64,000 bases of DNA from contig NZ_OCMS01000002.1 in NCBI RefSeq assembly GCF_900215325.1, positions 744,001 through 808,000 of the forward strand, in the 5' to 3' direction. The notes beneath the pieces were generated by a model that saw only the letters and a list, made by a program, of their open reading frames with translations, had not been told where the DNA came from and searched no databases. This DNA comes from Fibrobacter sp. UWB16. Its GTDB lineage: Bacteria > Fibrobacterota > Fibrobacteria > Fibrobacterales > Fibrobacteraceae. How positions within the stretch are numbered: the first letter of the stretch is position 1; the number at the start of each line of letters is the position of its first letter. Positions 18,671-29,901 of this stretch are shown piece by piece. A program made the position numbers and the translations under genes.

Positions 18671-19414
18671 ATGTTTAGAAGTTTATCTTTTTGTGCTTTT
18701 CTCGTCTTTGCTCTCTCGTCTGCCTATGCCGAGGCTCCGCGTGTCGTGCCGACAATTCTTGATTCTATTCCGCACGAAAAGTCTCACTTTACGCAGGGGC
18801 TCTCGTTTGATGGCAAGGACTTGATTGAAACCACGGGCCAGTATGGGAAATCGGGGCTGTATCGTCGTACGCTCGACGGAAAAATTCTTGATTCCGCACG
18901 CATTGAAGATCGTTATTTTGGTGAAGGTTCCGTTGTGCTTGGTGACGAGATTTACTACCTCACGTGGAAATCGCACAAGGCTTTTATTTATTCTCGCAAG
19001 CCTTTCAAAAAGAAAGGGGAGTTTCGCATCCCGACCGAAGGCTGGGGACTTACGCTTTGGCGTGACCAGCTTTTGATGAGCAATGGCTCCGATGAACTTT
19101 TGCAAATTGCACCGGGTGGCTTTGCTGTGTCGGGGATTATTAAGGTAACCGACGGTCGTTATTCAATTAAGCTTTTGAATGAACTTGAAGTCGTCGGAAA
19201 TCTTTTGTACGCAAACATCTGGCAAACGGACTTTATTGCTGAAATTGAACTTCCGAGCGGGAAGGTTCTCCGCTACATCGATTTCTCGAAAAAAGCGGGG
19301 GAGATTCGCGAAAAATTCCCTGGCGTAGATGTCTTGAACGGCATTGCCTACGACGGCAAGGATTTTTGGATTACCGGCAAGCTCTGGCCGCAAATCTATA
19401 AAGTCAAGTTTTAG
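18671..19414 (+). CDS. secreted glutaminyl-peptide cyclotransferase (plant-type glutamine cyclase)
   Basis: 247 residues: signal peptide (about 1-20, ending SSAYA) and a beta-propeller-type glutamine cyclotransferase domain. Family motifs are FTQGLSFDG, TTGQYGKSGL, FGEGSV, LTWK, EGWGLT, LLMSNGSDEL, LNELEVV, ANIWQTD, VLNGIAYDGKDFWITGKLWP. The enzyme converts N-terminal glutamine of exported proteins to pyroglutamate, probably in the periplasm. In organisms with type IX secretion this modification is common on exported proteins, but that link is inference here. It has no Shine-Dalgarno sequence. Confidence 0.9.
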   Translation: MFRSLSFCAFLVFALSSAYAEAPRVVPTILDSIPHEKSHFTQGLSFDGKDLIETTGQYGKSGLYRRTLDGKILDSARIEDRYFGEGSVVLGDEIYYLTWKSHKAFIYSRKPFKKKGEFRIPTEGWGLTLWRDQLLMSNGSDELLQIAPGGFAVSGIIKVTDGRYSIKLLNELEVVGNLLYANIWQTDFIAEIELPSGKVLRYIDFSKKAGEIREKFPGVDVLNGIAYDGKDFWITGKLWPQIYKVKF

Positions 19415-20786: not shown

Positions 20787-20817
20787 GTTTGGGTTGGATT
20801 AGGTGTGTGGAGGTTTT

Positions 20818-22398
20818 ATGTTATTTTCTCGTATTTTGCCGCTTTGCATTGCAACGGCTTTCACCACGTCACTTGCTGTTTTGGACTTGCCGAACGCACA
20901 GCCTAAAGTCGATGCCGCCTATTGGAACAAGGCTCTTGATAGTACGTGGCAGGGCTTAGTTCGTCGAAATATCCAGCCGTATAGTGCTGGTGCTGGATTG
21001 ATTCACCGTCCAAAGAGCGAAACCCCGGGCGATGCCGTGAGTGAAGGCGTTGGCTATGGAATGCTTGTCTCGCTTTATGCCAATGATCAGGCTTCGTTCA
21101 ATAAAATGTGGGAACAAGCAAATACATTGATGTGGAGCAGCTGCTATTACAACTGGCAGATGGGCCCCGATGGAAAAATTACGGGCTTGGGTGCTGCTTC
21201 TGATGCCGAGGAAGATGTCGCTTTGGCTTTGATTTTTGCCGACAAGCTTGTGTCTGCGGGTAAGTGGCAGCCGTACACTTCGGCAAAGCTTGGTTCCGAT
21301 TATAAGGCGCATGCGCAGAAAATTCTCGATTGCATGTGGAGCTCCAAGCAAATTACAAGTAATGGAATTTTGGCTCCGGGTGCAGGCTGGGGTGGTTATG
21401 AATTTGTCAATCCGGGGTATTTCTCTCCGGCTTGGTACAAGGTCTTTGCTAAGTTCGATTCCAATGGTGATCGTTGGAATACTGTGGTTGACAAGTCCTA
21501 CGAAATCATTGCTCTAAGCCCGGGTTACAGCATGGGCATGGTACCGGACTGGATGACTCCAGAAGGCGGCTGGGTTGGTTCTGCCGGTCTTGGCTATAAT
21601 GCTTATTTTGAAAGCCGCGCCTTTTTCAAGGATGCAATCCGCATTTTGTGGCGTGTCGCTATTGACGCTATCTGGTTTGACGAACAACGCGCAAAGACGT
21701 TCCTCAAGAATGCTTTGACGTTTATCAATTCGAAGGGTGGCGCTAAGGCTGCGAACTTCTACCAGATTGAAAATGCTGGCGAACTGTTGCCTGCTGAAGA
21801 TAAATGGTATGATTTCAACAATTCCAAGGATTCTACGACATGGCGTTACCGCAGTGAACACAGCCATTTGACGATTGGCATGTGGGCAACGGTTGCTATG
21901 GCTGTGGGCGAGAAGGCTGACCGAATTGCTTTCAGTGAAGAAATGGGCAAGTTCTATGAAGGTGGCGATTACTTTGGACTTGCAAAGAACGAAACGGACG
22001 CGCTCGAAGATACGCTCCATAACGAGATGTATTTTGACCAGTTCCTTGCCTGGTTCGGCACTTCCATGATGAGCGGTGCTTTTGTGAACGTTGTCGATGC
22101 CATTGACAATCCGAAGGCGGCAACAGTTGGGGATTCTTCTTCGCTTACGCCTTCGTTAAAGCTTGCGGAAAGACGTCTTGCCGGTATTGCCGGCATGAAG
22201 ATTAGCCATTTAGATGGCGCTGTGATGATGTCTGTTTCTGAACAGGCTCAATGGAAAATCTTTGACTTGAACGACCACGTTGTGGCGACTGCTTCTGGTA
22301 AAGATTTCCTTTGGAAGACGCGTGGTCAAAGCGGAATCTATATTGTGAAGGCCGTTGGCCGTAAACAAAGTTATTCTCGCAAGATTACAGTTCGCTAA
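20818..22398 (+). CDS. secreted glycoside hydrolase family 8 (endoglucanase/xylanase type)
   Basis: 526 residues. Signal peptide (about 1-22), GH8 catalytic domain (about 30-400), and an end of about 75 residues (IKVSH-like strands, then GIYIVKAVGRKQSYSRKITVR-like) that resembles type IX secretion type-A sorting domains. AVSEGVGYGM carries the conserved general-acid glutamate of GH8, and SDAEEDVALAL the conserved Asp region. GH8 enzymes invert beta-1,4 glucan, xylan or chitosan bonds; the substrate cannot be fixed from sequence. GGAGG lies 4 nt before the ATG at 20818, which was preferred to an upstream in-frame ATG at 20803. Fits a fibre-degrading organism. Confidence 0.88.
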   Translation: MLFSRILPLCIATAFTTSLAVLDLPNAQPKVDAAYWNKALDSTWQGLVRRNIQPYSAGAGLIHRPKSETPGDAVSEGVGYGMLVSLYANDQASFNKMWEQANTLMWSSCYYNWQMGPDGKITGLGAASDAEEDVALALIFADKLVSAGKWQPYTSAKLGSDYKAHAQKILDCMWSSKQITSNGILAPGAGWGGYEFVNPGYFSPAWYKVFAKFDSNGDRWNTVVDKSYEIIALSPGYSMGMVPDWMTPEGGWVGSAGLGYNAYFESRAFFKDAIRILWRVAIDAIWFDEQRAKTFLKNALTFINSKGGAKAANFYQIENAGELLPAEDKWYDFNNSKDSTTWRYRSEHSHLTIGMWATVAMAVGEKADRIAFSEEMGKFYEGGDYFGLAKNETDALEDTLHNEMYFDQFLAWFGTSMMSGAFVNVVDAIDNPKAATVGDSSSLTPSLKLAERRLAGIAGMKISHLDGAVMMSVSEQAQWKIFDLNDHVVATASGKDFLWKTRGQSGIYIVKAVGRKQSYSRKITVR

Positions 22399-22637: not shown

Positions 22638-23729
22638 CTACGCAGATATTTTTTCTAGCAATGTATCGCAGATTTCTGCGAGCATTCTCTCGTGCGTACA
22701 CACTTCGGGCGACACTCCTTCTATTGTCCCCGTCGTGTAGTAGCTCGTGCAGGCGCATTCATGTGCACAGCAGCGGTAGCGAATATCGCACCCCTCGCAT
22801 TCCTTTTTGTCGTTGTCCAAAAATTCTCGAATCTTGTCGCAAGCCGTCTCGTCAAAGCCGGTGAAAACGTTCCCCTGCACATAGTGGGTGTTTGGGTTTG
22901 AGGTGATGAACCGTGTGCAAGGGAACATATTTCCATTCGTGGCGACACCAATGGCTCCATTATATACATGGCACGAATAAAGCCTGTATCGTGAATTGAT
23001 AAGCGTTATTTTTATTTTGTCGTGAATTGTGCCGAGGAAGAACTTGTCGCCTTTTTCGCGACATGCCCTCCAATATTCTGCCATTTTCTGGTATTGCAAG
23101 GCGAGCTTGTCAAAATCTTCGCCTGTCCATTTGCCGTCAAAATCGACACTTGTGGTGAGACTTTGGAATCCCTGTTCGTGCAGCCATTTGACGCTCTCGA
23201 AAAGCGTGCTAACATGTGCACGCGTGACTGTGCTCAATGCTACAGCGCCGAGTTTCACGAATTGTGGAATGTGCTTTTCGATGGCCTTGAAACTACCCGT
23301 ATTGCTGACTGTGCGGCGGGCGATATCGTGATGGTATTCTGGCCCGTCGAGCGAAAGGTAAATGCGGAACTTTTCGCGCTCGCAAAAGTCAAAGAACTCG
23401 TCGTCAAAAAGCGTGCCGTTGGTGTTGACGGCAAATTGCAACCTAAAATTTTTAGAAATTTTGCCATTGTCCATCGCGTTATCGACAACCGCCTTTGCGA
23501 ATTCGACACCTTTATAAATTGCGTCTCTTTGCAAAAGCGGCTCCCCCCCAAAGAACGTGATGTTTAAGTACGACTGCCTAAAGAAAATCGTGCGGTCGAG
23601 CGCAATTTTAATCGCCTGCTCGAGAGTCGCATCGTCCATGACCGTTTTGCGGTCCGCTTGCGATTCCTTGTAATAGCAGTAGGTACAACGTAAATTACAT
23701 TGCTCTGTAAGGCAAAGAACTAAGTTCAT
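22638..23729 (-). CDS. radical SAM/SPASM peptide-maturase-like protein
   Basis: 363 residues. CNLRCTYC (C11, C15, C18) binds the radical SAM 4Fe-4S cluster, FFGGEP is the SAM-binding GGE motif, and LSLDGP fits a later strand. The C-terminal third has a SPASM pattern: C-x12-G-x4-C (CHVYNG...MFPC), then CEGC...RCC..EC.C and a last Cys, for two auxiliary clusters. Such enzymes modify peptides or proteins (sulfatase maturation, thioether or C-C crosslinks). The start overlaps the stop of the upstream lipoprotein gene (ATGA), so they are translationally coupled. No sulfatase is nearby. The two upstream lipoproteins are the obvious substrate candidates, by inference. Confidence 0.85.
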   Translation of the reverse strand: MNLVLCLTEQCNLRCTYCYYKESQADRKTVMDDATLEQAIKIALDRTIFFRQSYLNITFFGGEPLLQRDAIYKGVEFAKAVVDNAMDNGKISKNFRLQFAVNTNGTLFDDEFFDFCEREKFRIYLSLDGPEYHHDIARRTVSNTGSFKAIEKHIPQFVKLGAVALSTVTRAHVSTLFESVKWLHEQGFQSLTTSVDFDGKWTGEDFDKLALQYQKMAEYWRACREKGDKFFLGTIHDKIKITLINSRYRLYSCHVYNGAIGVATNGNMFPCTRFITSNPNTHYVQGNVFTGFDETACDKIREFLDNDKKECEGCDIRYRCCAHECACTSYYTTGTIEGVSPEVCTHERMLAEICDTLLEKISA

Positions 23730-24385
23730 GCTTGAATGTCATCTTGTTCGAACGTGGTCACCATGCTGACCATCTGGCATCTCGGGTCTTTAGGGTCGTC
23801 GCACATGTAAATTTGCGGGCAGAGCGGGTCGTTGTGTTGGCAACGCCAATCATCAATACATTTTTGATCGTCTGGAGCGCAATCACCGTAGGGAGTCTGT
23901 TCCGAAGAACTGCTAGATTCGTTTGCGGACGATGTCGGCGTGGTGTCGGAAGAACTGCTGCTTACATCCAGATCTTCTTCGTACGGCGGGAGAATGCCCG
24001 CTTCTATAATTGGCTCGTAAGACGAACTGCTAGGTTTTTCGACGGACGATGACGAATAAGTGTGAGGGATGCCTGCTGAGATTATTGAAGAACTGCTTTT
24101 GGGCAGTTTTGCAGAAGAAAGCGCTTCAATGGCTTCGCTGCTGAGGTGTTCGCCGCTTGAAGAAATGTCGGTATAGCTGGAACTGCTGAATTGTTCTCCG
24201 CATGCAGTTTCACCGCATGTCGGTTCAGGCTCTTGTTTTTTGTTGTCGTCGCCTGTTGCAGACATGCTGTCATCGCAGGCTGTTGTGCCGATGGATGCTG
24301 CAATTCCGAGTGCGGCCGCGACTGCACTTTTGGTAAATTTGCTCAATTTTGAGCTTTTGACGACTTTTTTCTTCTCAATTTTCAT
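23726..24385 (-). CDS. Ser-rich lipoprotein, candidate substrate 1 of the radical SAM protein
   Basis: 219 residues from ATG 24385 (AGGGGA at 5-6 nt). The N-terminus MKIEKKKVV...KLSKFTK is Lys-rich and is followed by a hydrophobic stretch and lipobox TTAC. Multiple poly-Ser tracts follow, with the block EHLSSEAIEALSS. Toward the end is a Cys/Asp-rich segment (CAPDDQKC, CQHNDPLC, CDDPKDPRC), then QMVSMVTTFEQDD. The N-terminal region, SSEAIEALSS block and terminal SMVTTFE-type motif are shared with the next upstream gene, so the two are paralogs. It overlaps the maturase gene by four bases. Function unknown; probably displayed on the cell surface. Confidence 0.8.
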   Translation of the reverse strand: MKIEKKKVVKSSKLSKFTKSAVAAALGIAASIGTTACDDSMSATGDDNKKQEPEPTCGETACGEQFSSSSYTDISSSGEHLSSEAIEALSSAKLPKSSSSIISAGIPHTYSSSSVEKPSSSSYEPIIEAGILPPYEEDLDVSSSSSDTTPTSSANESSSSSEQTPYGDCAPDDQKCIDDWRCQHNDPLCPQIYMCDDPKDPRCQMVSMVTTFEQDDIQA

Positions 24386-24409
24386 GTTTTCCCCTAACAC
24401 TTGCAGATC

Positions 24410-24985
24410 TTATACATTGTCAAGCATTTCGTATGTGGACACCATGCTGGCAATCATGCCTCGATCGTCGTCATGGCACATGATGACATGAATTCCTGTG
24501 GAATCTACAGTTTCGCACATTCTAGGATATGGAGGGACTACAGTATCACTTGAAGAACTGCGGGATTCTTCTTTGATGCTCGACGAGCTGCGAACATGTT
24601 CTACAAATGTGCTGCTGGAGCTTTCAGATGAACTGCTTACAACTTCTTCCGAAGAACTGCTGGGCGTTTCTGAAGAAGAACTGGCGAGATTTTCTGAAGA
24701 ACTGCTCGGCGATTGTACAGATGAAGAAGAAAGCGCTTCGATGGCTTCGCTGCTGAGGCGTTCGTGGCTTAGCGGAATATCTGCTACAGAGGAGCTGGAC
24801 GTGTTTTCTGGACTTTTTGGGGTGTTGTTGTCTGGTTCGATTGGGCCTGCAACTGGACTGCTTTCGGCATCGTCTAAACAACCGCTCATCAAAATGGCGG
24901 ACATGCCAAGCAACGAGGCTACCCCTGCCTTAGTGGCTTTGGATAAACGTGAATTTCCGATAACTTTCTTCTTCTCGATTTTCAT
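24410..24985 (-). CDS. Ser-rich lipoprotein, candidate substrate 2 of the radical SAM protein
   Basis: 191 residues from ATG 24985, preceded by AAGGAGAT. MKIEKKKVI...RLSKATK, a hydrophobic stretch and lipobox MSGC match its neighbour, as do ERLSSEAIEALSS and the ending MIASMVSTYEMLDNV. The middle is dominated by SSSS runs separated by short acidic pieces. It has two Cys (CETVDSTG, MCHDD) near the end instead of the richer Cys segment of paralog 1. It is the first gene of the three-gene unit, 24 nt before the second. TATATT at about 25018-25023 on the same strand may be the promoter. Confidence 0.8.
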   Translation of the reverse strand: MKIEKKKVIGNSRLSKATKAGVASLLGMSAILMSGCLDDAESSPVAGPIEPDNNTPKSPENTSSSSVADIPLSHERLSSEAIEALSSSSVQSPSSSSENLASSSSETPSSSSEEVVSSSSESSSSTFVEHVRSSSSIKEESRSSSSDTVVPPYPRMCETVDSTGIHVIMCHDDDRGMIASMVSTYEMLDNV

Positions 24986-25163
24986 AAAAATCTCCTTCAA
25001 CCATAACACTCTATCTTAATATAGTTTGTTTTGGAATATAAAATGCAATTTTGGGCTGTTTTTATGAATAGCGTTGAACGATTTTGTTGCATCCGTTGCA
25101 TATAGAGGGGGCAAAAGAAAAAACGCCCGGTTTCCCGAGCGTCTTTATCGTAATTGTCAATTC

Positions 25164-28482: not shown

Positions 28483-29901
28483 ATGGTCTTCTCTTCCCAG
28501 ATTTTCCTTTTCTACTTCTTGCCGACGTTTTTGGTTGGCTACTTTGTTCTCTTCAAGCTCGGGGCTAAGCATTCGTTCCTGAACTTGTTCATTACCATCT
28601 TCAGTTACGTTTTTTACGGCTGGCTCGAACCGTGGCTCGTGTTCCTCATGTTCGGCTGTACGCTTGTCGTGTACGTAGCTGGGCGGTTCATCTCGGCGCC
28701 GAATGCAAGTTCTTTGCAGCGTAAGGTTGCCCTGTGGACTGCAATTGCGGTGAATCTCGGGGCGCTCGGGTTCTTCAAGTATTACATGTTCGGCATGGGG
28801 ATCGTGAACGATTTTGCGACCATGCTCGGCTGTGAGCCATTCTCGATTATGACGGTTCTTTTGCCGGTGGGCATTTCGTTCTACTCGTTCCAGTCCATGA
28901 GTTATGCGATTGACGTTTATCGCGGTTCCGCTCCTCCGGTCAAGAACTTTGCGACATTCGCATGCTACGTGGCGCTTTTCCCGCAGCTTGTGGCAGGCCC
29001 GATTGTGCGCTACAATACGGTCGCCGAAGAACTTGAAACCCGCACGCATACGCTTGAAAATTTTGTGCGTGGTATCCTGTTTTTCTGCTTTGGCTTTACC
29101 GAAAAAATCTTCCTTGCAAATCAGGTGGGCATTATCGCAGACCGCGTTTTTGCGGCTGATGCTCCGGGCGTCATCAATAGTTGGTGGGGCTCGCTTGCCT
29201 ACATGTTCCAGATTTACTTTGACTTCTCGGCGTATTCTAATATGGCGATTGGTCTTGGACTTATGCTCGGGTTTCATTTTCCGCGCAACTTCAATGGCCC
29301 GTACCGCTCTGTTAGCATTACGGACTTCTGGAAGCGCTGGCATATCTCGCTCACGAGTTGGTTCCGCGATTACCTGTACATTCCGCTGGGTGGCAACCGC
29401 GTGCCGACGGGTCGCATGTACTTCAACCTTTTCCTCGTGATGTTCGTGAGTGGCGTTTGGCATGGTGCGAACTGGACGTTCGTGTGCTGGGGCCTTTATC
29501 ACGCCTTCTTCATGATTGTGGAACGTGCAAACAACAAGAACGCTTGGTACTACAAGGCTCCTCGCGTGGTGCAAATCCTTTTGACGCAGGTGATTGTGCT
29601 CTTTGGCTGGGTGCTGTTCCGTGCGGATTCTATTGGCGATGCTGTCCGCATGTGGAAGAATATGATTGGGCTTGGCGCAACGGCTGCTTCCGACGTGATT
29701 TTATCTGCTGAAATTTTCACGCCGACATGCGTTGTGTTCATGTTGCTGGCGGGTTTACTTTCGTTCTGGAAGTTCCGCAGTTACGATTGGTGCATTGACG
29801 TTTCTTTCAAAAAGTCGCTCATTGCGCTTGGCTTGTTTATTTTGGCAACGCTTGCGCTCTTTACCCAGAGTTACAACCCGTTCCTTTATTTCCAGTTCTA
29901 G
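28483..29901 (+). CDS. MBOAT family membrane O-acyltransferase (AlgI-like)
   Basis: 472 residues with about ten transmembrane segments. MBOAT features are FVSGVWHGANWTFVCWGLYH with the conserved active-site histidine, and YIPLGGNR, LPVGISFYSFQ and DFSAYSNMAIGLG. Members related to AlgI and DltB move acetyl or other acyl groups across the membrane to polysaccharides or other acceptors. A partner SGNH-type acetyltransferase (AlgJ/AlgX) is absent nearby, and the adjacent genes encode exported proteins of unknown function. Operon spacing is 3 nt upstream and 2 nt downstream. Confidence 0.93.
   Translation: MVFSSQIFLFYFLPTFLVGYFVLFKLGAKHSFLNLFITIFSYVFYGWLEPWLVFLMFGCTLVVYVAGRFISAPNASSLQRKVALWTAIAVNLGALGFFKYYMFGMGIVNDFATMLGCEPFSIMTVLLPVGISFYSFQSMSYAIDVYRGSAPPVKNFATFACYVALFPQLVAGPIVRYNTVAEELETRTHTLENFVRGILFFCFGFTEKIFLANQVGIIADRVFAADAPGVINSWWGSLAYMFQIYFDFSAYSNMAIGLGLMLGFHFPRNFNGPYRSVSITDFWKRWHISLTSWFRDYLYIPLGGNRVPTGRMYFNLFLVMFVSGVWHGANWTFVCWGLYHAFFMIVERANNKNAWYYKAPRVVQILLTQVIVLFGWVLFRADSIGDAVRMWKNMIGLGATAASDVILSAEIFTPTCVVFMLLAGLLSFWKFRSYDWCIDVSFKKSLIALGLFILATLALFTQSYNPFLYFQF

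Follow-up and report, generated by a model that had tools for sequence, protein, structure and literature searches.

A Fibrobacter radical SAM/SPASM enzyme and its predicted lipoprotein substrates with a conserved leader and C-terminal tail

In a stretch of 64,000 nucleotides from Fibrobacter sp. UWB16 (the window), a radical SAM/SPASM enzyme is encoded directly after two paralogous Ser-rich lipoproteins. Comparing genomes, the pairing of this enzyme with such lipoproteins is far stronger than mere proximity, and two patterns that the lipoproteins share, a leader and a C-terminal tail, are beyond chance in being almost confined to these loci. The enzyme is probably a cytosolic maturase that uses the N-terminus of the lipoproteins as a leader and modifies their tails, with ordinary lipoprotein export and anchoring to follow. 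A first-pass annotation of the window had already proposed that the enzyme acts on the lipoproteins, perhaps at the C-terminal motif, and linkage and conservation strongly support the action on the lipoproteins, with the motif as the likely site.

The three genes form one unit on the minus strand, as first described, and their coordinates were confirmed. In the order of transcription, they are lipoprotein B (24410..24985, 191 amino acids), lipoprotein A (23726..24385, 219 amino acids), and the radical SAM/SPASM gene (22638..23729, 363 amino acids). Both lipoproteins, the predicted substrates, have the leader MKIEKKKV, a lipobox (TTAC with Cys37 in A; MSGC with Cys36 in B), a Ser-rich linker, and the conserved tail. 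The reported ATGA overlap between the stop codon of lipoprotein A and the start codon of the enzyme gene (23726..23729, minus strand) is real. It recurs in 40 of 44 loci from clade A, the branch of the enzyme's family that carries these lipoproteins (counting loci whose last lipoprotein ends near the start of the enzyme gene). Each clade A enzyme is accompanied by one to five lipoproteins.

The upstream neighbor of the operon is ilvBN. A terminator-like hairpin lies between them (25119..25146, minus strand) and is consistent with separate transcription of the operon, as a pattern match only, from a scan whose total number of sites was about the mean for shuffled sequence. The operon is followed, on the plus strand, by a gene for a family 8 glycosyl hydrolase (20803-22398). 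The plus strand of the window also encodes a glutamine cyclotransferase (18671-19414) and a membrane-bound O-acyltransferase of the MBOAT type (28483-29901).

The DNA pattern for the tail, SMV[TS]T[FY]E, has 83 matches in 168 Fibrobacterota genomes. In the genus Fibrobacter, each of the 80 matches has a clade A enzyme on the same strand, no more than 3 kb downstream; the other three, from different genera, appear to be chance hits. The annotation had proposed checking whether lipoproteins with this tail always adjoin the enzyme. The exact pattern lies upstream of 47 of the 49 clade A enzymes, and the remaining two have one-residue variants there (SMATTFE and SMVSTYD). The MKIEK leader pattern is similarly linked, with 82 of its 83 matches in the 168 genomes upstream of clade A or clade B enzymes. 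The lone unlinked match comes from G083:C16, a small contig that carries phage-integrase-like genes and lacks such a lipoprotein.

The lipoproteins are conserved mainly at their two ends. Among 86 distinct clade A lipoproteins, the mean pairwise identity is 86% for the leader (residues 1-8) and 73% for the ten-residue tail. The remainder of the signal peptide reaches 45% and the linker 36%, a value that its Ser content inflates. The leader, which is at 24362..24385 in lipoprotein A and 24962..24985 in lipoprotein B (both minus strand), opens the signal peptide and is unusually conserved as MKIEK[KR][KI][VI]. The annotation was right that the two paralogs share an N-terminus. It also noted a shared block, LSSEAIEALSS, which is present in both paralogs but in just 30 of the 86 clade A lipoproteins. 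A simple lipobox pattern, [AGSTC]C, occurs at residue 36 or 37 in 83 of the 86 and at residue 27 in the remainder.

The tail is SMVTTFEQDD in lipoprotein A (23738..23767) and SMVSTYEMLD in lipoprotein B (24419..24448), again on the minus strand, and it is the predicted site of modification. Some form of it is present in all 86 clade A lipoproteins, and the 63 different DNA strings that encode it draw on all four codons for Val and all four for Thr, so the protein sequence is what is conserved. In the alignment, the Cys, S, M, and T columns are invariant and V, E, and D are nearly so: one upstream Cys followed by S-M-x-x-T-x-E-x-x-D is held while the Ser linker drifts. The motif as originally reported, M-x-SMV(S/T)T(F/Y)E, is real from SMV onward, but the M-x ahead of it is not conserved. 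The Cys-rich segment of lipoprotein A had been suggested as another possible site, and this did not hold up: just one Cys is conserved across clade A (codon 23801..23803 in lipoprotein A; the corresponding codon in lipoprotein B is 24482..24484; both minus strand). The spacing from this Cys to the SMV tail varies from about 7 to 16 residues. A structure model of the lipoprotein tail had low confidence (pLDDT 70, pTM 0.27) and is uninformative on structure.

These patterns suggest the following mechanism. The substrates of the enzyme would be the lipoproteins encoded just upstream. The enzyme would recognize MKIEK[KR][KI][VI], with the start of the signal peptide doubling as a leader, and it would modify the C-terminal tail, C...SMV[TS]T[FY]E..D, in the cytosol. 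The modified lipoprotein would then be exported by Sec, lipidated at Cys36 or Cys37, and anchored, and the Ser-rich linker would hold the modified tip off the membrane. That a modification occurs, its site, and the order of events are all inferred from comparative evidence; similarly, the lipobox and the linker suggest that the lipoproteins are displayed on the surface. Alternatively, the leader may be conserved because it serves an export route of its own. We did not see a dedicated transporter or protease with the enzyme and its predicted substrates.

To place the enzyme, we searched the 168 Fibrobacterota genomes and built a tree with 111 full-length relatives, which are 45-97% identical and form one family; below that family, identity falls to about 28%. 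Across 84,980 species, the matches listed, which were stronger than 49 further candidates, comprise 77 loci, all of them from Fibrobacteraceae by their record titles. The wider family occurs in several genera of Fibrobacteraceae and clade A was seen only in Fibrobacter, with the caveat that most of the genomes are metagenome-assembled, so that a missing gene or a short flank carries little weight.

Clade A (47 enzymes in the tree) is a single branch with support of 100, and its partners are the MKIEK lipoproteins with the SMV tail. The four enzymes of clade B are paired with MKIEK lipoproteins that end in SMxxx[VI]GH, and some of these tails lack a nearby Cys. In clade C (22 enzymes in Fibrobacter), the partners are M[DNE]I lipoproteins without the SMV tail, and four further enzymes from other genera have MNI lipoproteins as partners. 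For clade D (34 of 111), no Ser-rich lipoprotein was found in the searched flanks. Instead, a protein of 69-183 amino acids, mostly Lys/Ala-rich and without an evident signal peptide, is encoded about 30 bases downstream. (L118 and L121, each of which has the downstream protein, belong to clade D but were automatically labeled C_lipo when a weak upstream open reading frame got through the initial filter.) Partner type tracks the enzyme tree: the four labels require 4 changes, versus 52.4 in shuffles. Homologs without such lipoproteins had been named beforehand as evidence that would tell against the pairing, and half of that expectation was borne out: homologs at 45-60% identity have other partners, including the Lys-rich downstream proteins of 34 of the 111. 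Therefore, the lipoprotein pairing is specific to the clade and not to the enzyme family.

Several clade D loci have features of their own. The second copy of the family in the same genome as the window (L033, at G000:C4:42081-43166) is 54% identical to the window enzyme; it has a 102-amino-acid Lys/Ala-rich open reading frame about 30 bases downstream and no adjoining lipoprotein. At L122, L125, L126, L129, and L130, the proteins that follow the enzyme look like RiPP precursors, at 69-91 amino acids and with Gly/Pro-rich segments, and no export gene was noted at these five loci. Also, a second, distant radical SAM match adjoins two clade D loci (G116:C32:15498-15926, which is L118:3439-3867, and G134:C13:13489-13917). 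It is 36% identical over 159 amino acids and lies in an open frame of 689 amino acids on the opposite strand.

We considered whether the lipoproteins might be functional partners that are kept by co-expression, with the enzyme modifying something else. Genes that share an operon are not always an enzyme and its substrate, and in the open literature that we searched, we did not find any paper on this enzyme family or on modification of these lipoproteins. However, the arrays contain one to five divergent lipoproteins that are alike mainly in leader and tail, the leader and tail are almost confined to these loci, and the type of partner shifts with the enzyme clade. We therefore view non-substrate partners as improbable.

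Another explanation keeps the maturase and its substrates but moves the modified sites to G-[IVDEL]-[PIVL] segments in the linker, such as AGIP, AGIL, and AGDP; the SMV tail would then contribute to recognition as a second element or act as a tip that binds surfaces. These segments recur across otherwise unrelated partners: every one of the 26 C_lipo proteins has them (3.3-fold over shuffled sequence), as do 31 of the 32 downstream proteins from clade D (2.2-fold), although the motif class was set after we inspected the sequences. In clade A, the enrichment is just 1.9-fold, and 21 of the 86 lipoproteins do not contain any G-x-[PIVL] segment, while all 86 have the tail. So, these segments were rejected as a universal site for clade A, and it is quite unlikely that the linker, instead of the tail, is what the enzyme modifies.

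The enzyme itself has the expected features of the radical SAM superfamily. It matches PF04055 with 61.3 bits (the gathering cutoff is 29.5 bits), and the cluster motif CX3CX2C (C11, C15, and C18; 23676..23699, minus strand) is invariant in 29 aligned family members. The SPASM region (22698..22973, minus strand) has eight Cys (C253, C271, C311, C314, C320, C325, C327, and C344), with the pattern CX2CX5CX4CXC, and all eight are invariant in the 29 aligned relatives. We assign the enzyme to the SPASM subfamily by this multi-Cys pattern, whose spacing is slightly altered; Pfam's SPASM model gives 17.1 bits, below its cutoff of 21.5. An AlphaFold2 model of the enzyme, built from the 29-member alignment, has a pLDDT of 93. 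The nearest solved folds are CteB (TM 0.80), anSMEcpe (TM 0.75-0.79), ChlB, and TigE, all of which modify peptides or proteins. The radical SAM fold begins right at the N-terminus of the chain, which leaves the enzyme without an RRE or other separate domain to bind a leader, a point against the proposed mechanism.

The enzyme does not score above the cutoff of any NCBIfam family. Its best match is to the ranthipeptide maturase PapB (NF047865), with 209.8 bits (E = 5.8e-62) over 334 residues, versus a curated cutoff of 340 bits. PapB substrates have CX3[DE] repeats, whereas the predicted substrates of the window enzyme are exported lipoproteins with one conserved Cys, and the window enzyme lacks the N-terminal RRE domain. 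The closest structure, the SCIFF thioether enzyme CteB (5WGG/5WHY), also matches by profile (E = 5e-45), but CteB has about 95 extra N-terminal residues ahead of the aligned part and its SPASM spacing is CX2CX5CX3C.

These similarities raise the question of whether the modification of the tail might be a ranthipeptide-like thioether that links the conserved Cys to a Thr, Glu, or Asp residue in the SMV tail, in the Cys-Xn-Asp/Glu style of PapB. This would refine the chemistry of tail modification and is not exclusive of it. A thioether fits the clade A tails, in which one Cys is invariant; PapB is the best-scoring family, and a thioether enzyme is the nearest fold. Also, PapB accepts Cys-Xn-Asp with n = 0-6 (PMC9413430). 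However, the spacing of about 7-16 residues is larger and variable, the PapB cutoff is not reached, and a number of clade B tails have no Cys close by. Because of those clade B tails, a change that does not involve Cys is at least as likely, and we consider a thioether unlikely.

Similarly, the fold match to anSMEcpe might indicate an anaerobic sulfatase-type maturase, or another known SPASM enzyme, that acts on a remote substrate. However, the enzyme scores 91 bits against the sulfatase maturase family, whose cutoff is 349. In anSME, the residue that comes just behind the cluster Cys must be Asp (D277), and the family has Thr or Ser at that position. Furthermore, the operon partners are lipoproteins and no sulfatase gene was seen beside them. 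We give this explanation almost no credence.

A close parallel is found in the DAG-RiPPs, which are RiPP-lipoprotein hybrids made by MNIO enzymes (DybA/DybH and NedA; PMC12636315). In those systems, a metalloenzyme modifies a lipoprotein precursor, the signal peptide routes the precursor through the lipoprotein pathway, and DybH recognizes a conserved C-terminal motif (PMC12636315). The loci studied here likewise have a precursor with a lipoprotein signal, as judged by the simple [AGSTC]C pattern, beside a modifying enzyme. The enzymes differ: MNIO there and radical SAM in the window. The text of PMC12636315 does not mention radical SAM or Fibrobacter. It is possible, though we lean against it, that the family switched substrate class, from exported Ser-rich lipoproteins to downstream Lys-rich proteins without an evident signal peptide, and that its products include lipoproteins altered by radical SAM chemistry, which would parallel the DAG-RiPPs, by a Cys-independent modification that has not yet been described.

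If the tail is indeed modified, then RiPP-lipoprotein hybrids would extend from MNIO to radical SAM enzymes, and the system would be compact and testable, with one enzyme and one to five substrates. The sister clades form a natural series on how one enzyme family changes its substrate. Fibrobacter is one of the main degraders of cellulose in the guts of herbivores, and anchored proteins with such a modification could be important for its surface.

Finally, the first-pass annotation described the system as undescribed, which needs qualification. The pairing of a radical SAM enzyme with lipoproteins is already known as a kind: NCBIfam names TIGR04133 (rSAM_w_lipo), a hypothetical equivalog. True members of this family occur elsewhere in the same genome, with scores above 600 bits (625). 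Like the window enzyme, the radical SAM/SPASM protein at G000:C1:292997-294046 is encoded right after several Ser-rich lipoproteins. However, the window enzyme is not a member, being unrelated at the family level (22.2 bits versus a cutoff of 425), and the window locus has no match to TIGR04134 (lipo_with_rSAM), whose cutoff for lipoproteins is 39.8 bits. The window enzyme and its partners are a distinct version. Another named radical SAM maturase family, the FibroRumin maturase (TIGR04136), is matched weakly (36.9 bits versus a cutoff of 400). The TIGR04133 locus (G000:C1:291203-294061, which is L222:3204-6062) is a parallel radical SAM/lipoprotein system, in which three lipoproteins, Ser-rich or Cys-rich, immediately precede the enzyme. 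These lipoproteins start with MFYKHWKK or MNIRKHWKK and have repeated YG[VI] segments, in place of the MKIEK leader and the SMV tail.
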